DNA from: Thiofilum flexile DSM 14609
GTDB taxonomy: Bacteria > Pseudomonadota > Gammaproteobacteria > Thiotrichales > Thiotrichaceae
DNA length: 64,000 nucleotides
Reading direction: 5' to 3'
NCBI RefSeq assembly: GCF_000380185.1
Contig: NZ_KB904751.1
Span: forward strand, 1-64,000
The translations under genes were made by a program, and so were the position numbers. Below are positions 19,294 to 60,397 of the stretch, piece by piece (positions within the stretch are counted from its first letter, which is position 1; every line of letters starts with the position of its first letter). The notes below the pieces were generated by a model, which saw nothing but the letters and a program-made list of their open reading frames with translations, searched no databases and was not told where the DNA came from.

Positions 19294-20478
19294 ATGGGAT
19301 TATTAGCAGATTTGACGGGCTGGCAATTAGTGTTAATCACTTTGGTCATGACCCATATTACGATTGTAGCGGTAACGGTTTATCTTCACCGGCATCAGGC
19401 GCATCGAGCGGTGGAGTTAAACGCTATTCCCGCTCACTTTTTCCGCTTTTGGTTGTGGCTTACTACAGGTATGGTGACGCGGGAGTGGGTAGCGATTCAT
19501 CGTAAACATCACCACAAATGCGAAACCCCCGACGATCCTCACAGCCCGCAAACCCGTGGTTTAAATAAAGTATTATGGGGTGGTGCATTACTTTACCGTC
19601 AAGAAGCTAAAAATCTACAAACTATTCAACAATATAGTCAAGGCACCCCGAATGATTGGCTTGAAACCCATCTGTATTCTCGTTTTCCTTGGTTAGGTAT
19701 TACGCTCATGCTACTCATTGATCTGGCACTCTTTGGCGGGGCGGGGCTGATTATCTGGGGTGTGCAAATGATCTGGATTCCGTTTTGGGCAGCGGGGGTG
19801 ATTAATGGCTTGGCGCATTTTTGGGGCTATCGCAATTGGAATACTGCTGATGCATCGAGCAATATTTCCCCTATCGGTATTATTATTGGGGGTGAGGAGC
19901 TGCATAATAATCACCATGCTTTTGCAGCCTCAGCCCGCTTTTCGACCCAATGGTATGAGTTTGATATTGGTTGGTTTTATATTCGCCTGTTGGAAGTATT
20001 AAAACTAGCACAAGTGAAACGAGTTGCACCGCGCATTAAAGTGGATTTAAAAACTAAAGTGGTTGATTTAGAAACCTTAAGTGCTGTGATTGGTAATCGG
20101 TTGCAAGTGCTATCCAATTTTGCCCGTCAAGTCGTGCATCCGGTGATTAAACAAGAGCTAGGTCAATCCAGTGGTGACTACAAAGAAAAGTCACGTTTAG
20201 TGCGTCAGTTATTAGGTCAACCGCATTTAGATGAGAGCGCTCGTGAACGCTTACAAGTATTACTATCTGAAAGCCAAGTGTTGACTACGGTCTATCAATT
20301 CCAGCAAAACTTGCATCATTTATGGGAGCGTACCGCTAATAACCAAGAGGCACGTTTAGCGGCGCTACAAGAATGGATAGCCAACGCCGAGCAAACGGGT
20401 ATTCAACGCCTTGAGGAGTTTGCTCAACGCCTAAAAGGCTATCGGGTCAGTGTATTAGCGAATACCCAACCCGCTTAA
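19294..20478 (+). CDS. membrane fatty acid (acyl) desaturase
   Basis: The protein has the three histidine boxes of membrane di-iron desaturases: HRHQAH at residues 32-37, HRKHHH at 69-74 and HNNHH near 205. Hydrophobic segments flank them. The order and spacing fit delta-9 acyl-CoA/acyl-lipid desaturases (DesA/OLE1 type), which put a double bond in saturated acyl chains in the inner membrane. A helical C-terminal extension of about 150 residues (from about 245) is polar and Gln/Glu-rich. The start at 19294 (MGLLADLT) is preferred over an ATG six bases upstream because AAAGAGA then has proper spacing and family members begin MGLL. Confidence 0.9.
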   Translation: MGLLADLTGWQLVLITLVMTHITIVAVTVYLHRHQAHRAVELNAIPAHFFRFWLWLTTGMVTREWVAIHRKHHHKCETPDDPHSPQTRGLNKVLWGGALLYRQEAKNLQTIQQYSQGTPNDWLETHLYSRFPWLGITLMLLIDLALFGGAGLIIWGVQMIWIPFWAAGVINGLAHFWGYRNWNTADASSNISPIGIIIGGEELHNNHHAFAASARFSTQWYEFDIGWFYIRLLEVLKLAQVKRVAPRIKVDLKTKVVDLETLSAVIGNRLQVLSNFARQVVHPVIKQELGQSSGDYKEKSRLVRQLLGQPHLDESARERLQVLLSESQVLTTVYQFQQNLHHLWERTANNQEARLAALQEWIANAEQTGIQRLEEFAQRLKGYRVSVLANTQPA

Positions 20479-21440
20479 GCCACCTGATTTAGCACCTCAC
20501 CTGTGTTAATAAAGGTGCTAATAATCTGGGCGAGTTGTTCAATAAGGCGTTGCCGTGCGGTGCGGCTCGCCCAGGCAATGTGGGGAGTGACAATTAAGTT
20601 CGGTAGTTGAGCCTCTAAGAGAGGATTACCCTGAATCGGTGGTTCTTGTGGCAAAACATCAATCCCTGCTCCCCCTATTTGACCTTGTCTTAAAGCGGCT
20701 AACAGCGCTGTTTCATCCACAATGCCACCCCGCGCGGTATTGATTAATAAAGCATGGGATTGCATGAGTGCTAGGCGCTCAGCATTGATTAAATGGGTGG
20801 TTTCAGGCGTGAGAGGGCAGTGTAAGGATACCACATCGGCTTGTTGTAAACCGGCTTCTAACGCAATTTTACCGGCACGAGTGGGGGCATGGGGGCGTTC
20901 AGCAAATAATATTTTCATGCCTAAGGCTTGTCCTAAACGGGCGGTGGCTTGGCCTAGTGTACCCCCTCCAATAATGAGCAGGGTGTTACCGGCTAATTCA
21001 CGAATAGGATGATTCAGGAGGCAAAATTGCTCCGCGCGTTGCCAAGCGCCTTGGTTTAATTCTTGCTGGTAGGCAGGTAAACTACGGCTCAAGGCAAAAA
21101 TCAGGCTAAATACATGTTCTGCCACCGATTGTGAGCCATAATCACGGACATTGGTCACGGGTATATTGAGCTGGCGTGCAGCGTTTAAATCAATGTTATT
21201 GGTTCCCGTAGCCGCAACACAAATAAGCTTTAAAGTGTCTCGTTGTGAGTGCATTAAGGCTGCATCTATGGGGACTTTATTACTAATCACTATACTGGCA
21301 GTCCCAATATGTTCTTGGATTTGAGCGGCTGGGGTATGAGGCCATAGGGTAAGCTGTCCCTGACAGGCTGTGGATAAAGGGGTTAAATCTAAATCACCTG
21401 CTTGAGTACTAGCAGTGTCTAAAAATACTACTGTGGGCAT
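20475..21440 (-). CDS. D-2-hydroxyacid dehydrogenase (glycerate/hydroxypyruvate type)
   Basis: The protein of about 321 residues has the NAD-binding motif IIGGGTLGQATARLG, the active-site Arg in NTARGGIVDE, the Glu in DVLPQEPP and the catalytic His in TPHIAWAS. This is the full catalytic set of NAD-dependent 2-hydroxyacid dehydrogenases, closest in style to HprA-type hydroxypyruvate/glycerate reductases. The Met giving MPTVVFLDT (21440) is chosen; the longer frame to 21521 adds 27 residues of unusual composition and would abut the divergent transglycosylase start. Its stop overlaps the desaturase stop by four bases (convergent). Exact substrate is not certain. Confidence 0.88.
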   Translation of the reverse strand: MPTVVFLDTASTQAGDLDLTPLSTACQGQLTLWPHTPAAQIQEHIGTASIVISNKVPIDAALMHSQRDTLKLICVAATGTNNIDLNAARQLNIPVTNVRDYGSQSVAEHVFSLIFALSRSLPAYQQELNQGAWQRAEQFCLLNHPIRELAGNTLLIIGGGTLGQATARLGQALGMKILFAERPHAPTRAGKIALEAGLQQADVVSLHCPLTPETTHLINAERLALMQSHALLINTARGGIVDETALLAALRQGQIGGAGIDVLPQEPPIQGNPLLEAQLPNLIVTPHIAWASRTARQRLIEQLAQIISTFINTGEVLNQVA

Positions 21441-21520
21441 TTGCTTTTCACCGAGGGTAGCGTGGTTTGATATACTGGCACAATGGCGGTGTGACCTAGC
21501 ACTAACTAAATTGGAATTCA

Positions 21521-22741
21521 ATGATTCGGAAGATAGTTCGTAGTATACAACTGACGCTGTTATTTGTAGTGGCTTTATTTGGTTATAGCTTCTTTGCCGA
21601 TCCTGATTTTGATCAGTGGAAGCTGGAGTTTAGCCAATATGCTGAGCAACAAGGTATCAAAGCCGAGGTGTTACATTTAGCCTTTGCGGGATTATTGCCG
21701 GATCGTAAGGTATTGCGTTTGGATGCACACCAACCCGAATTTAGCCGTCCGATTTGGGATTATCTCGATAGTGCCGCGTCGACCGCACGAGTCGCGAAGG
21801 GGCGGCGTTTATTGGCGGAGTATGGCGAGCTACTAGAGCGCATTCACCAAGCCTATCATATACCCCCAGAGTATATTTTAGCGATTTGGGGTGTGGAGAC
21901 AGACTATGGTAATTTCATGGGCGGCTATTCCACCATTCGTTCCTTAGCAACGTTAGCTTATCAAGGGCGCGTGGTACGGCGCGAGTTTTGGCGCGAGCAA
22001 TTAGTCGCAGCGCTGCGTATTGTGCAAAATAATGATATGGGCATTAATAGCCTAATTGGCTCATGGGCGGGGGCGTTTGGGCATACGCAATTTATTCCCA
22101 CCACCTTTGAGCGCTATGCGGTGGATTTTGATGGTAATGGTAAGCGCGATTTGGTTAATAGCATTCCCGATGCGCTGGCCTCTACGGCGAATTATTTAGC
22201 GCAATCCGGCTGGATAGATGGTGAGCATTGGGCGCAAGAAGTAAAACTCCCTAGCACCTTTGAGTGGTCACGTGCCGATCCGACCTACTGGTTACCTGTA
22301 CGTTTATGGGTAGATCAGGAGCTAGTCAGTAGTGCCTCGAATCAACCTTTACCTTTGGATAATCAAGGCTTTATTTTTCTCCCTGCTGGATATCGTGGCC
22401 CCTCATTATTGGCCTACCATAATTTTAATGTATTGCTCAAATATAATAATGCCTATAGCTATGTCATGGCAGTAGGAACGCTAGCCGATCAAATTCGGGG
22501 CGAGCCTGCACTGCAAGCCACCTGGCCTCGCGATATGCGAGAATTAAGCTTTGCCGAAAAAGCCGAATTACAAGAGCTACTGACTATAGCAGGCTATAGC
22601 ACTGACGGAATTGACGGACGTTTAGGCCCTAATAGTCGTGCCGCTCTACGGCGTTGGCAAATGGATGTAGGCTATCCTGCGGATGGGTTTGCTATCTATG
22701 AGCACTTGGAAAAACTGCGCCTGCAAGTACCGATGGTTTAA
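21521..22741 (+). CDS. lytic murein transglycosylase, MltB type with peptidoglycan-binding domain
   Basis: The 406-residue protein cleaves peptidoglycan glycan strands, forming 1,6-anhydro ends. An N-terminal hydrophobic segment (residues 8-24) is a signal anchor without a lipobox. The catalytic domain has AIWGVETDYGNFMGGYSTIR, with the catalytic Glu in GVETDYG, then SWAGAFGHTQFIPTTFERYA and the calcium-loop-like DFDGNGKRDL. A C-terminal PG_binding_1 domain (about 335-400) carries AGYSTDGIDGRLGPNSRAAL. This layout is that of the soluble MltB/SltB group in proteobacteria. It is divergent from the dehydrogenase gene across about 80 bases. Confidence 0.93.
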   Translation: MIRKIVRSIQLTLLFVVALFGYSFFADPDFDQWKLEFSQYAEQQGIKAEVLHLAFAGLLPDRKVLRLDAHQPEFSRPIWDYLDSAASTARVAKGRRLLAEYGELLERIHQAYHIPPEYILAIWGVETDYGNFMGGYSTIRSLATLAYQGRVVRREFWREQLVAALRIVQNNDMGINSLIGSWAGAFGHTQFIPTTFERYAVDFDGNGKRDLVNSIPDALASTANYLAQSGWIDGEHWAQEVKLPSTFEWSRADPTYWLPVRLWVDQELVSSASNQPLPLDNQGFIFLPAGYRGPSLLAYHNFNVLLKYNNAYSYVMAVGTLADQIRGEPALQATWPRDMRELSFAEKAELQELLTIAGYSTDGIDGRLGPNSRAALRRWQMDVGYPADGFAIYEHLEKLRLQVPMV

Positions 22742-49634: not shown

Positions 49635-50160
49635 TTCAGTGCCCTCGCATGGTTTGGTATTATTTCTACCCTTTTTTAAACAGACTACAGTTTTAAAATA
49701 CGCTCCCTAGGAACGGAAGACGGTGATTTAATAAGTGCTTAAAAGGTGAATAATTCACTGCAACTTATAAATTCACTAAAGATTACCTTATAAATAGCCG
49801 TTTAAGAGTGAGCCTACAAAAAGAGCATGACACTCAGAAAACACTAGGCATTTGCTGCTGTGTGTGGTCTTTTGCCAATACAACTAGCAAGAGTGGGAAT
49901 AAGCGTCGCCATTACTAACTACTTTGTAACATACGGTAGGGGAGGGGGATTATAAAGAATAGATAATTTCTATACTAAAAAAAACGACTAAACACCCAAT
50001 TAAAATAGAACCTATTGATCGAAGCAGAGCAGGGTATCTACCCTTAGCTTAACTGATTAGATTCGTCATGATTTAAAGCGATAGGTTTTTACGCGATTTT
50101 TATAGCTCATAGTCTATTCTTTTAAGCTATGAATTTTATTTTATGAAAGAGGTGAAGGTC
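49635..50160. other. intergenic region upstream of the Sel1 gene
   Basis: The 526-base stretch holds ACAAAAAGAGCATGACAC at 49816-49833, which recurs at 54098-54115 after the intact copy of the duplicated gene. It suggests that the duplicated segment extends past the gene. The rest is A/T-rich; no gene, hairpin or RNA was recognised. The last 120 bases must contain the Sel1-gene promoter. Confidence 0.5.
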
Positions 50161-51732
50161 ATGCGTTTTTTACCTGCTTTAGTCTTTAGTTTGGCATTGA
50201 GCAGCTCGGTGTTATGGGCTGATGTTAATCATGAGAAACAAGATTATACCACTGCCTTGAAAATAACTAAGTCGCTAACTGATTCAGGTAGCACGGAGCT
50301 TAATCTTGGGCTGATGTATTTCAGGGGAGAGGGGGCGAAAGAGGATAAGAGTGAAGCTGCTAAGTGGTTTACCAAAGCGGCCGAGCAAGGCAATGTTAAT
50401 GCTCAACTCTACCTCGCACTGATGTATAGAACAGGGATGGGTGTAAAGCGGGATGTGAATGAGGCTATTAATTGGTATATCAAGGTGGCTGAGCAGGGCA
50501 ATGTTGATGTTCAGCGCTATCTTGGGTGGATGTATGGTTACGGAGAAGAGGTAAGAGAGGATAAGCGAGAGGCAATCAAGTGGTATGCCAAAGCAGCCGA
50601 GCAAGGTAATGTTGCGGCTCAATATTACCTTGGATTAATGTATAAAACGGGGGGAGGGGTAAAAGAGGATAAAAATGAGGCGGTCAAATGGCTTACCAAA
50701 GCAGCCGAGCAAGGTGATGTTGAGGCTCAACGCCTTCTTGGACAGACATATGATTTTTCTTATGATGAAAAGAATGCATTGGCAAAATATGAAGCAATCA
50801 AGTGGTATACCAAAGCAGCGGAACAAGGAGATACTGAAACTCAATTTTACCTTGGATTGATATATGACTTTGGAAAGAATGTGAAGCAAGATAAGCAAGA
50901 GGCAATCAAGTGGTATACCAAAGCAGCCGAGCAAGGTAGTAATTCCGCTCAATACAAACTGGGGCAAATGCACGACAAAGGCGAGGGGGTGAAGCAAGAT
51001 AAGCAAGAGGCAATCAAGTGGTATACCAAAGCAGCGGAGCAAGGCCATGCTGATGCTCAATTCAGTCTTGCTCAGGTGTATGACAAAGGAATAGGTGTAA
51101 CACAGAATAAGAGAGAGGCTGCTAAGTGGTTTGACCAAGCACAAATCCGTACGGAGGATCAACGTTTAATTAAATTAAAACATGAAATTGATGAGAGCTT
51201 AAAGAGCGGTAAGAGTGTGCTTATTATGAGATTGTACACCCAGGCGACTGAGCAAAATGATGCAAGTGCTCAATTCAGTCTTGCTCAGATGTATGATAGA
51301 GGATTGGATGTGAAGGAAGATAAAAGTGAGGCTGCTAAGTGGTATACCAAAGCGGCCGAGCAGGGTGAAACGGATGCCCAACTCAATCTTGGGCGGATGT
51401 ATGAAATGGGTTTGGGGTTGAGGGAGGATAAGGGAGAGGCTGTTAAGTGGTATACCAAAGCGGCTGAACAAGGTAATGATAAAGCACAATTTGCTCTTGG
51501 GAAAATGTATGCTTATGGCGAAGGGGTAAAAGAGGATAAGGGAGAGGCTATTAAATGGTTTACCAAAGCAAAAGACTATATGAATGCCCAAATTTTCCTT
51601 GGGGTAATGTATGAAATGGGGCAAGGGGTGAAGCTGAATAGGCAAGAGGCTATCAAATGGTTTAGCAAAGCCGCTGAACAAGGCCATCCAGATGCTAAAA
51701 AAGCATTAGAGCTACTGAAACAGGCTCACTGA
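50161..51732 (+). CDS. Sel1-repeat protein, secreted
   Basis: The protein of about 523 residues starts with a signal peptide (MRFLPALVFSLALSSSVLWA) and then about a dozen Sel1-like repeats of 36 residues (consensus AIKWYTKAAEQGNADAQFYL, then GxMYxxGxGVKxDKxE). A break at about 330-355 carries DQRLIKLKHEIDESLKSG, a helical non-repeat insert. Sel1 arrays form superhelices for protein contacts, often in envelope or exported signalling proteins. The ATG at 50161 is used because GAGG precedes it and gives the signal; the upstream ATG at 50143 lacks a site. Function unknown. Confidence 0.9.
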   Translation: MRFLPALVFSLALSSSVLWADVNHEKQDYTTALKITKSLTDSGSTELNLGLMYFRGEGAKEDKSEAAKWFTKAAEQGNVNAQLYLALMYRTGMGVKRDVNEAINWYIKVAEQGNVDVQRYLGWMYGYGEEVREDKREAIKWYAKAAEQGNVAAQYYLGLMYKTGGGVKEDKNEAVKWLTKAAEQGDVEAQRLLGQTYDFSYDEKNALAKYEAIKWYTKAAEQGDTETQFYLGLIYDFGKNVKQDKQEAIKWYTKAAEQGSNSAQYKLGQMHDKGEGVKQDKQEAIKWYTKAAEQGHADAQFSLAQVYDKGIGVTQNKREAAKWFDQAQIRTEDQRLIKLKHEIDESLKSGKSVLIMRLYTQATEQNDASAQFSLAQMYDRGLDVKEDKSEAAKWYTKAAEQGETDAQLNLGRMYEMGLGLREDKGEAVKWYTKAAEQGNDKAQFALGKMYAYGEGVKEDKGEAIKWFTKAKDYMNAQIFLGVMYEMGQGVKLNRQEAIKWFSKAAEQGHPDAKKALELLKQAH

Positions 51733-56454: not shown

Positions 56455-56634
56455 TTATAAAACACAAACTACTTCTGCCAGCTTTTCTTGGTTATCAGGC
56501 GATATTTTAGGATCAATAGTAAAACTCCCAGAGGCTAAATACTTGCCACTGGGACACTCTTTTGTAATCAAAGTACCTTCTTCTACTAGATTAGAAATAT
56601 CATAGTTCCACCTTACCTCAACACCACCCACCAT
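56455..56634 (-). CDS. small ORF coupled to the putative immunity gene (59 residues)
   Basis: Its ATG (56634-56632) overlaps the stop of the gene upstream by one base (TAATG), which is typical for translational coupling. It encodes 59 residues, MVGGVEVRWNYDISNLVEEG and on to EKLAEVVCVL, with no signal or membrane segment. It may be a second immunity or accessory protein, or the remnant of a larger Rhs-linked gene. Family not known. Confidence 0.5.
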   Translation of the reverse strand: MVGGVEVRWNYDISNLVEEGTLITKECPSGKYLASGSFTIDPKISPDNQEKLAEVVCVL

Positions 56635-56942
56635 TATTGATGATTTTTATTTAAAAATACAACATAACTAAATTTATAAATCCAATATACTAGACCAAGC
56701 AATAATAATACTGCTGAAATAGGATTTTCTATATTAATTCCTATTTTCTTTGCAACATTCTTTTCCTGTAGTAAAAAAAGGTAAGGATAAACTCCTGTAA
56801 CCATAACCAATACGTTTAAACAATTTAATGACCATGCCCCTAATAATTTTAGTTTACTACTATAACTAGATATTAATCTATGTAATTTATACAAACTATA
56901 GCTAATAAAAAATAAACCAATTACCGCTATTATGAATAACAT
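56634..56942 (-). CDS. putative membrane immunity protein of the Rhs module
   Basis: The 102-residue protein has three hydrophobic segments (LFIIAVIGLFFISYSLY, LNCLNVLVMVTGVYPYLFLL and AVLLLLGLVYWIYKFSYVVF) and a basic/polar linker. Its start overlaps the 3' end of the Rhs frame by 13 bases on the same strand, the place and linkage expected for the immunity gene of a polymorphic toxin. The A/T-rich composition differs from core neighbours. No family recognised. Confidence 0.6.
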   Translation of the reverse strand: MLFIIAVIGLFFISYSLYKLHRLISSYSSKLKLLGAWSLNCLNVLVMVTGVYPYLFLLQEKNVAKKIGINIENPISAVLLLLGLVYWIYKFSYVVFLNKNHQ

Positions 56943-58219
56943 AAACCAGCCTTCATTGTCATTCTATTATAAGCATCACGAATTGCGTCTGAAGAAAATA
57001 CTACCTCAGAAGAAAAACCGATTCGTGATACTTGTCTTATTGCCATTTCATAATCTCCAGGAAAGCTATTTCTCCCATTAATAGATCTCATATAAGGATA
57101 ATTATTTAAAGTATTTTGACGTAGAACCGGCCTAGCTAGTCCGCCACCTATATTAACCCCTGCATAGGCCAAATCGCCATACTCTTTTCCAACAACAGTA
57201 TAAGTCAGCTTTCTGGCTGGTCCATCTTCTGTGGTATATGCTTCATACATATTGCTAGCTCCTAATCCAATAATAGGAGCACCTAATACACAGCCCGCAA
57301 CAGTAGAACATAAGGCTCCACCTAATCCTGCTTGTGCTGCTCCGCCTACAAAGCCAAGTGTTCGTAACCCATAGCTTATAGTCTTATCCAACAATCCCTT
57401 TTCCTCATTAAACAAATGAGTAAGCGCCGCACTCAAAGCTCCATCCTGAAAACTCCCACCTGTAGCCTCTGCTGCTAGCCCGCCAAATACTGTAGCCGTG
57501 ACCGTGCGTAGGGTGATCGCCATACCACTTGAGCCACCCATGCCGTCCGTTGCTACACCTGAGAGCTTGCCTATAACAGCTCCTACAAAACCCGACTTAA
57601 AGCTCCCGCTGCGTAGATTAGAAATGACTCCTTGTGCCACTCCATGCGCCAAACCTTGACTAAACAGGGTTTTGAACACACCACCATGCCCAATAAAGCC
57701 AGCCACCCCCGCACTCAACCCACCATAGAAGGCATTTTGTAAGGCTCCTTTCAAGGTTCCCGTCGTGGCATAACCCTGCACAAAAGAGGCTGCCACCGCA
57801 TTACCAATACCCTTAGCAGCAAATAAGCTATGCCCAAACGCTCCCCCCATCAACGCCATACCCGCTGCCATGCCAATGGCTTGAATCAGCTTATTACTGC
57901 TATTCGAGGCGGCAATGGCAATAATGGCACCTATAATGAAATTGAAGAAATACCCACTCGGATCCGTGTATTTGAGGGGATTATTCATCACATACACATA
58001 GCGATTATAATTCTGGCTTTGAGTGGGGGCTTGAATAAAGGTATCGGGACTGATAAAGCGCCCTATCTCTGGATCATAGAGCCGTGCATTCATATGCACT
58101 AACCCTAAGCCTTCGAGATGTTCGTGTCCGGTAAAGCCTCGACTGGTCCACGCCTTTTTGTCGGGGTCGGTGCCATAAGTGACGGTGCGATTACCAATAA
58201 CCCGCGTTATACTCCTCAC
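56930..58219 (-). CDS. truncated Rhs core plus C-terminal (likely toxin) module
   Basis: The 429-residue frame begins inside an Rhs repeat: VIGNRTVTYGTDPDKKAW, then RGFTGHEHLEGLGLVHMNAR and RFISPDTF, the RHS-associated core. A Gly/Ala-rich hydrophobic part (80-270) and a variable tail follow. The tail (about 320-429) has NMYEAYTTEDGPARKLTYTV and GDLAYAGVNIGGGLARPV, recalling DUF4225-type Rhs ends (low certainty). The large Rhs shell upstream is absent, and a stop (TAG) stands right before the GTG start at 58219. It may be a silent reserve tip that needs recombination with a full rhs gene, or a pseudogene. Confidence 0.75.
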   Translation of the reverse strand: MRSITRVIGNRTVTYGTDPDKKAWTSRGFTGHEHLEGLGLVHMNARLYDPEIGRFISPDTFIQAPTQSQNYNRYVYVMNNPLKYTDPSGYFFNFIIGAIIAIAASNSSNKLIQAIGMAAGMALMGGAFGHSLFAAKGIGNAVAASFVQGYATTGTLKGALQNAFYGGLSAGVAGFIGHGGVFKTLFSQGLAHGVAQGVISNLRSGSFKSGFVGAVIGKLSGVATDGMGGSSGMAITLRTVTATVFGGLAAEATGGSFQDGALSAALTHLFNEEKGLLDKTISYGLRTLGFVGGAAQAGLGGALCSTVAGCVLGAPIIGLGASNMYEAYTTEDGPARKLTYTVVGKEYGDLAYAGVNIGGGLARPVLRQNTLNNYPYMRSINGRNSFPGDYEMAIRQVSRIGFSSEVVFSSDAIRDAYNRMTMKAGLCYS

Positions 58220-58246: not shown

Positions 58247-59131
58247 ATGGCAGAAAAAGATATAGTCAGCAAAGAAGTCCTACAACACCTCGCCGCCGAT
58301 ATTGCCAATATTTTACTCCATCTTGATGTGGAGCAGGATTCGGTAGAGTTATTACAAACCGAACAGCAGCGCGTGGAAATGCGCCGTGCGGATATGATCG
58401 CTCGCATGCGCCGTCGCCAAACGGGGGAAAAATTTATCCTGCATATCGAAATTCAAAATGCGAATGACCACAGTATGCCCATTCGTATGCTGCGCTACTT
58501 GACTGATATTTTGCTACAATATCCCAATGAACCGGTTTATCAATATCTGGTCTATATTGGACAACGCGGTTTAGGCATGCAACATCAATTGCTCTTACCT
58601 AATCTGGATTATCGTTACCACGTGCTGGATATGTACACAGTAGATTGCAGTTTATTGCTCGCACAAGATACGCCAGAGGCCTTAGTGCTCGCCATTTTAT
58701 GCGATTTTAAGCAACGTCCGGTGCAGGAAGTGGTCAATTATATTGTGATGCGTTTGCGCGAATTGACGGGGGATGATGAGAAAGCGTTTCGCAATTATTA
58801 TGAAATGTTGGAAACACTCGCCGATAATCGTAACCTACAAGCTAATTTAGATGAGGCCAAACATATGTTAACACAAGTTGATATTACACGTTTTTCTACT
58901 TATCGCTGGGGCTTTGAGAAGGGCATTGAGCGAGGCATTGAACAAGGTATTGAGCAGGCTCGTGGGGAGCTTCAGCCTTTGTTAGATACCGAAAAACAGC
59001 GTCTCTTGCAGGGGGTTAAGCAATTGATTCAGATGAACACGATGAGCCATCAGGCCATTGCGGATTTATTTCAGTTATCGCTCACTGAAGTGGAACAAAT
59101 AGCAGCTTCTATTACTCCCACTCAGCATTAA
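58247..59131 (+). CDS. Rpn-type PD-(D/E)XK nuclease/transposase-family protein
   Basis: The 294-residue protein has the family pattern EMRRADMIARM and then KFILHIEIQNAND, a PD-(D/E)XK core with Asp and Glu-x-Gln, followed by RMLRYLTDILLQYPNEPVYQ. The C terminus carries EKGIERGIEQGIEQARGEL, a charged helix seen in Rpn proteins. In E. coli, Rpn proteins promote RecA-independent recombination. It is divergent from the truncated Rhs frame, only 27 bases away, exactly where the Rhs homology ends. Confidence 0.85.
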   Translation: MAEKDIVSKEVLQHLAADIANILLHLDVEQDSVELLQTEQQRVEMRRADMIARMRRRQTGEKFILHIEIQNANDHSMPIRMLRYLTDILLQYPNEPVYQYLVYIGQRGLGMQHQLLLPNLDYRYHVLDMYTVDCSLLLAQDTPEALVLAILCDFKQRPVQEVVNYIVMRLRELTGDDEKAFRNYYEMLETLADNRNLQANLDEAKHMLTQVDITRFSTYRWGFEKGIERGIEQGIEQARGELQPLLDTEKQRLLQGVKQLIQMNTMSHQAIADLFQLSLTEVEQIAASITPTQH

Positions 59132-59298: not shown

Positions 59299-59688
59299 TC
59301 AAAAATTACCATTCATACAGCACTCATAGCCGTCGCGTTTACAAGTATTTATGTAAATACTAATAATAATTTTATCATTCATATAACTATCAACTAGATA
59401 AAAGAAAAATTTTTTACTATATTTTTTATGAGCCTCAATTTTAGTAAAAGTTGATTTTTCTTTAAAAAAATCCCTATTTATCCAATATGAAACTGTTTCT
59501 TTGATATGAGATCGATGATTATCAATACAGTCTACATAATCATTTGAATCTACTATTCTTGCAATAGGACTATCATAATAGTTAATAAAAAAGTTGACTC
59601 TACTAATTAGCCACCAAGACAGCAGTAAGACAATAATTAATGCAATCATAACCAACGGCCTATAACTCCACCTTAAAAAAATAGCCAT
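59299..59688 (-). CDS. hypothetical single-pass membrane protein
   Basis: The 129-residue protein has one membrane helix (LVMIALIIVLLLSWWLI) near the N terminus and a periplasmic part rich in Asn, Lys, Tyr and Ile with four Cys (in VDCIDNH, NTCKRDGYECC). It is markedly A/T-rich against its surroundings, suggesting transfer. It starts four bases after the ankyrin gene stop. No family recognised. Confidence 0.65.
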   Translation of the reverse strand: MAIFLRWSYRPLVMIALIIVLLLSWWLISRVNFFINYYDSPIARIVDSNDYVDCIDNHRSHIKETVSYWINRDFFKEKSTFTKIEAHKKYSKKFFFYLVDSYMNDKIIISIYINTCKRDGYECCMNGNF

Positions 59689-59692
59689 TTGT

Positions 59693-60397
59693 TTACTCCA
59701 TTAAATTATCAGACAAAGGGTAGTATGTTAGATGTGTTGAGGTTTCAGCTATAGATGAATTTGGTTTTGTAGTTAATACTTTCTCTCTAAAGAAATCATC
59801 ATACTTGCGGCACTTTTCATTTGAAAGCGGATTATTTAGAATAGGCTCTCGATTTAATACGCTATCAATAGCTGTTCGACCATCTTTATCCTTCCTATAG
59901 GGATCAGCCCCTGCCTGTAGCAAAATCTGTGTATGCTCCAAATAACAATAACTAGCACTCATCATTAAGGGCGTAGTACCGTCCTTGGCTGTAGCATTAA
60001 CATCTGCTCCTTGCTCAACTAAAAACTGGAGAATCTCAGCAGGGGAATTAACCATTGCCTTGGTTAAAATCGTATAATGCCCACTACGTTGGTGAATATC
60101 TTGTTTTTTCTCTATGACTAAATACTTGATTACTGGCAAATTAGGGTTACAGGCTAACTCTAGATTTAAATATACTGGGTTATACTTCTCAGAGCCACGA
60201 ACTGCCTCTAAACTACCGGCTTGTGCTATAGCTTGTTTCACTCCCTCTAAATCTCCAGAGCATACCGCTGCCACTAGTTGTTGAGATGGGCTCGGTATTT
60301 GGTTTTCTTGTTTATCCCATAAGCCTAAAGCAATGCTTGCCCATAGGATCAGACCTAAAGCCATCGCAATCAATATATGATTAGGGGATATTTTCAC
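59693..60397 (-). CDS. ankyrin-repeat protein with N-terminal membrane anchor
   Basis: The 234-residue protein has an anchor (HILIAMALGLILWASIALGL) and then ankyrin repeats, the clearest being EILQFLVEQGADVNATAKDG and HTQILLQAGADPYRKDKDGR. Ankyrin proteins of this kind often accompany Rhs and other toxins as immunity or adaptor proteins; that role is inference from the nearby Rhs module. It is the first gene of a two-gene unit with the membrane protein at 59299. Confidence 0.82.
   Translation of the reverse strand: MKISPNHILIAMALGLILWASIALGLWDKQENQIPSPSQQLVAAVCSGDLEGVKQAIAQAGSLEAVRGSEKYNPVYLNLELACNPNLPVIKYLVIEKKQDIHQRSGHYTILTKAMVNSPAEILQFLVEQGADVNATAKDGTTPLMMSASYCYLEHTQILLQAGADPYRKDKDGRTAIDSVLNREPILNNPLSNEKCRKYDDFFREKVLTTKPNSSIAETSTHLTYYPLSDNLME

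Follow-up and report, generated by a model that had tools for sequence, protein, structure and literature searches.

What does a rhs reading frame that lacks its beginning represent: a toxin tip kept in reserve, or a relic of a gene that has been lost? The question is raised by a locus in a 64,000-nucleotide stretch of Thiofilum flexile DSM 14609 DNA (contig NZ_KB904751.1; hereafter, the window), where a rhs frame opens inside the Rhs core and is followed by two small overlapping ORFs (Table 1). The initial annotation read it as a stored toxin tip. According to the analysis described here, the locus is likely an orphan remnant comprising the 3′ end of a lost DUF4225-type Rhs toxin gene, the gene of a candidate immunity protein of the membrane, and a third, short ORF.

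Table 1. Features of the rhs locus and the adjacent gene (positions in the window).
Feature	Position	Strand	Remarks
Headless rhs frame, 429 codons	56930..58219	(-)	nominal GTG start directly after TAG
RHS-associated core TIGR03696, residues 15-89	57953..58177	(-)	69.8 bits, cut-off 32.5
Hydrophobic Gly/Ala-rich spacer, residues ~90-273	57401..57952	(-)	kept in relatives' Rhs proteins
Variable toxin tip, residues ~274-429, diverged DUF4225 domain	56933..57400	(-)	profile matches and partner change at residue 273
102-aa protein, three hydrophobic helices, candidate immunity protein	56634..56942	(-)	overlaps rhs by 13 bases; GAAGG 7 bases before ATG
59-aa ORF, soluble, coding-like	56455..56634	(-)	TAATG overlap with the 102-aa ORF
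Divergent Rpn-type nuclease/transposase-like gene	58247..59131	(+)	borders the feature, outside the toxin unit

Anatomy of the Headless rhs Frame

The rhs frame is a fragment of a Rhs gene and not a complete gene. The initial annotation had correctly placed its opening in the middle of the core directly after an in-frame stop, leaving the strand unstated: on the minus strand, TAG at 58222-58220 abuts the GTG at 58219. No ribosome-binding site is seen before this GTG, and both the N-terminal delivery part and the RHS repeats are absent from the frame. By the codon usage of the window, it is the top scorer of the six frames and hence coding-like. The RHS-associated core motif, also noted earlier, is found well above the cut-off of its family and reaches 74.4 bits in the genome scan, while a sub-threshold Pfam match to DUF637 lies in the spacer (residues 136-214).

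The variable tail described in the initial annotation is real, but its boundary lies near residue 274-277 and not at residue 320. Residues ~27-273 (also given as 25-273) align to three relatives from the same bacterial family with 39-46% identity, a range that refers to the three longest matches among these relatives, and beyond residue 273 the relatives carry unrelated C-termini. Since the alignment runs up to residue 273 and then breaks off, the end of the core and the hydrophobic spacer are, judged by sequence, the constant part, behind which a variable C-terminal tip starts, as in Rhs toxins. The GC step from 50% in the core and spacer to 40% in the tip agrees with this boundary; the GC content of the 102-codon ORF is 24%. 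The full-length proteins of the relatives contain SpvB, FG-GAP, and RHS-repeat domains, and one of them starts with an apparent signal peptide (by eye). Two such proteins (in G015 and G019) have residues ~27-273 in common with the rhs frame but extend to 2330-2458 aa and end in other, unrelated tips, whereas only a headless fragment is present here.

The Tip Resembles a Diverged DUF4225 Domain

In Vibrio parahaemolyticus, a DUF4225 protein serves as an antibacterial effector of the T6SS. E. coli cells lyse when it is in their periplasm but not when it is in their cytoplasm, and an 89-aa protein with three helices, encoded immediately downstream, neutralises it; the target of the effector is not known, peptidoglycan being another possibility, and the DUF4225 domain has also been found on RHS-repeat proteins (PMC9765294). 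In the tip of the rhs frame, Pfam detects DUF4225 (PF13988) with E values of 0.0008-0.001 (18.8 bits for the whole protein and 19.4 for the tip alone), which does not reach the gathering score of 25.9. A profile built from 13 aligned DUF4225 proteins encoded elsewhere in the phylum scores 27.5 bits against the tip, with a shuffle maximum of 6.1 (0/3000 above). The yardstick is the right one, since one of the 13 proteins, used as a query, retrieves proteins annotated as DUF4225, some of them encoded beside hcp/tssD. The hydrophobic N-terminal half of the tip taken separately reaches 25.1 bits against a shuffle maximum of 10.1 (0/3000), and an hhalign comparison of the tip with DUF4225, colinear over the toxin domain, gives a probability of 97.1% and an E value of 5.9e-11 over 132 columns.

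Residues ~277-424 thus make up a diverged DUF4225 domain. Of the residues shared by 10 or more of the 13 members, 15 are kept in the tip (among others, G289, Q296, G300, G313, G320, E326, G333, G348, Y352, and D389), and 19 are not kept or absent. The PDAWRLF motif is missing, as is the Asp of the AxxDL motif, in whose place the tip has Asn356; with these residues lost, the tip may be inactive or act otherwise. Relatives of the tip were found neither in 63 genomes of the family and 369 genomes of the class nor in plasmids or viral contigs; a first PF13988 scan of the class, which gave zero matches, is not counted as absence. An AlphaFold model of the tip alone (pLDDT 31) was unusable.

It could be argued that the likeness to DUF4225 reflects nothing but a shared Gly-rich hydrophobic composition and that the tip belongs to some other, undescribed toxin family, given that the Pfam score is sub-threshold, that its best stretch falls in the hydrophobic part, and that conserved motif residues are missing. 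This explanation appears improbable, as the polar C-terminal half matches by itself (14.8 bits against a shuffle maximum of 8.1; 0/3000) and the order of the DUF4225 motifs is retained. Moreover, the same profile gives no score above 4.3 bits on the 472 ORFs of ten rhs loci from relatives and from the other two rhs contigs of this genome, Gly-rich Rhs spacers included.

The Two Downstream ORFs

The 102-aa ORF occupies the position of an immunity gene, directly downstream of the tip and overlapping it at 56930-56942, and it encodes three hydrophobic helices, so that the membrane protein gene of the initial annotation is confirmed in both respects. Its frame is the top scorer of the six by the codon usage of the window, and none of 2000 dinucleotide shuffles gave an ORF as long from its ATG. 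AlphaFold predicts three helices for the protein alone (pLDDT 70), and at a pTM as low as 0.32, the helix count alone was used. Two other DUF4225 genes are likewise overlapped or abutted by three-helix ORFs (101 and 109 aa). In size, place, and its three helices, the protein fits an Imm4225-like role and is probably the immunity protein of this tip. The earlier proposal of a toxin tip acting in the envelope and paired with a membrane immunity candidate is thereby strengthened, the tip matching a domain that is lytic from the periplasm and countered by a three-helix product of the downstream gene (PMC9765294). When the 102-aa protein was compared with four ORFs next to other DUF4225 genes, the scores fell below those of shuffles and homology was rejected; no relatives were found in the 63 genomes of the family or in plasmids. 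A study of CDI ionophores describes the immunity proteins of one toxin group as often highly polymorphic (PMC11630599).

The 59-codon ORF shares one base with the 102-codon ORF, at 56634, just as first described. It is coding-like, its frame being the top scorer of the six by the same codon usage, and an ORF as long from its ATG appears in 0.65% of dinucleotide shuffles. Its suggested role as a small third partner is unproven: no ribosome site of its own is seen, and neither a family match nor a homologue was found. A weak match (E=0.005) to part of an RHS protein locus was put down to chance.

The Truncation Point and the Neighbouring Genes

The rhs frame breaks off 27 bases from the start of the divergent Rpn-type gene. 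The latter matches TIGR01784 with 34.2 bits, below the cut-off of 52.1, as well as the transposase family phrog_3300, and six further copies or fragments of it are present in the genome (seven in total). The DNA common to these copies is restricted to the ORF, the best copy being 80% alike. A mobile element with shared flanks was therefore rejected as the cause of the truncation, and the data do not establish that a defined element inserted there. At the rhs loci of the relatives, no Rpn homologue was found.

Further along the window, at 59299-60397 on the rhs strand, two AT-rich ORFs are possibly a further pair that remains of a toxin locus: a 129-aa ORF with one N-terminal hydrophobic helix in a region of 23-31% GC and, 4 bases upstream of it, the gene of a 234-aa ankyrin-repeat protein. 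At 50143-51732, the window also encodes a 529-aa protein with many repeats resembling Sel1-like repeats (by eye).

Stored Tip or Decayed Remnant

In Salmonella, tip exchange by core recombination has been shown for an orphan rhs fragment (PMC3967940), and for enterobacteria, Jackson et al. proposed exchange by the same route and described arrays of displaced tips (PMC2935791). The locus under study is similar to these orphans in its fragmented rhs frame, in the lack of the start and export parts, and in the linked immunity candidate; it differs from them in that the main rhs gene is neither adjacent nor, with a similar core, present elsewhere in the draft genome. The assembly comprises 71 contigs and is rated 100% complete, but as a draft it may lack an intact rhs gene that the strain has. 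Neither a complete rhs gene of this type nor a DNA-similar core was found in the 71 contigs; therefore, a main rhs gene with a homologous core, the recombination partner that tip storage calls for, is not seen in the assembly. The other rhs cores of the genome match in protein at E values of 1e-4 to 2e-3 only, and a query with the head of one relative's full-length protein retrieved RHS repeats on contig C45 alone. The T6SS sheath protein VipB/TssC (PF05943), expected alongside a T6SS effector, has no match in the genome, the E. coli control being positive.

Two other rhs loci exist in the genome (contigs C19 and C45), and both are headless. On C19, between genes reading as metG and leuA, a second headless rhs end lies at L061 7595-9865 (G000 contig C19, about 19594-21864); it consists of an end of ~250 aa with a frame-shifted core fragment (118 and 252 aa), a 142-aa ORF that overlaps it and encodes three helices, and further tip-like fragments, and another rhs core remnant is located near L061 10774. 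On C45, a headless rhs frame of ~1179 codons (L062 5828-9738, G000 contig C45) bears 13 RHS repeats and a Pretoxin HINT domain. Its repeats start directly after stops, close to the contig end, and a 126-aa ORF, possibly the immunity gene of this frame, overlaps it on the downstream side.

Could the tip nevertheless be a functional reserve, silent now but brought into use at times by recombination with a full rhs gene, as in Salmonella? Its frame is intact and coding-like with the immunity candidate linked, the missing start and export parts are exactly those missing from the Salmonella orphan (PMC3967940), arrays of displaced tips have a precedent (PMC2935791), and a draft assembly leaves room for it. 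All the same, we regard this as unlikely: the genome offers neither a DNA-similar core nor a complete head, the protein-level matches of its other cores are faint, and the headless state of both other loci points to decay. The claim that the tip is stored for reuse is therefore not upheld. The initial annotation had named as adverse evidence the lack of a complete rhs gene in the genome combined with decayed homologues in relatives; the former is what was found, while the homologues in G015 and G019 are intact and full length. Far less probable still is that the real gene is complete and was misassembled at the Rpn repeat. Copies of the Rpn-type gene do recur in the genome, and rhs repeats often break assemblies. 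However, the best copy, being 80% alike in DNA, differs too much to confuse an assembler, the shared DNA stops 27 bases short of the junction, and the remaining rhs loci are headless as well. The most economical reading is that the remnant is silent and its immunity gene possibly still live.

Comparison with Known Toxin Systems and a Possible Mechanism

A close parallel is DUF4225/Imm4225 of V. parahaemolyticus (PMC9765294), to which the locus is similar both in a tip homologous over the toxin domain and in a small three-helix membrane protein directly downstream. The Vibrio protein, in contrast, is a T6SS cargo encoded beside hcp, whereas the tip described here forms one frame with an Rhs core and spacer, is devoid of PDAWRLF, and belongs to a genome without a T6SS sheath. 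The 102-aa protein is likened to Imm4225 by architecture and place, although it is unlike the four ORFs beside other DUF4225 genes. By inference, there is also a likeness to Tse5/Tsi5 of Pseudomonas aeruginosa, an inner-membrane Rhs C-terminal tip with a small integral-membrane immunity protein; Tse5, however, belongs to the PAAR-type T6SS effectors, and Tsi5 has two helices (PMC9637101) as against three in the present candidate. When P0001 was compared with PDB sequences, no chain named Tse5 was among the matches listed, which were Rhs core regions. Tse5/Tsi5 may thus serve as a working analogue, with no relatedness to the tip being claimed.

In the favoured reading, the tip, as part of the full protein, would have reached the periplasm of rival cells, where its Gly-rich hydrophobic helical hairpin (residues ~287-325) would have disrupted the inner membrane, and the three-helix protein would sit in the inner membrane and block the tip. 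The loss of the 5′ part probably means that the toxin is at present neither produced nor exported; the immunity gene, having its own ribosome site, may still protect the cell. A bolder and rather doubtful idea is that the tip stands for a distinct DUF4225 subfamily that lacks PDAWRLF, resides on SpvB/FG-GAP/RHS-type proteins instead of T6SS components, and is guarded by a new three-helix immunity family together with a second small soluble partner.

The locus is otherwise a relic of an ordinary kind, and what the analysis adds is the name of a toxin family for a tip that would have been anonymous. The assignment extends DUF4225 to a lineage whose genome shows no T6SS sheath and whose relatives possess SpvB/FG-GAP/RHS proteins, and the missing PDAWRLF motif offers a natural way to find out which residues are required for toxicity. 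Finally, the headless state of every rhs locus found in the genome bears on how rhs genes decay and on whether immunity genes persist after their toxins are lost.
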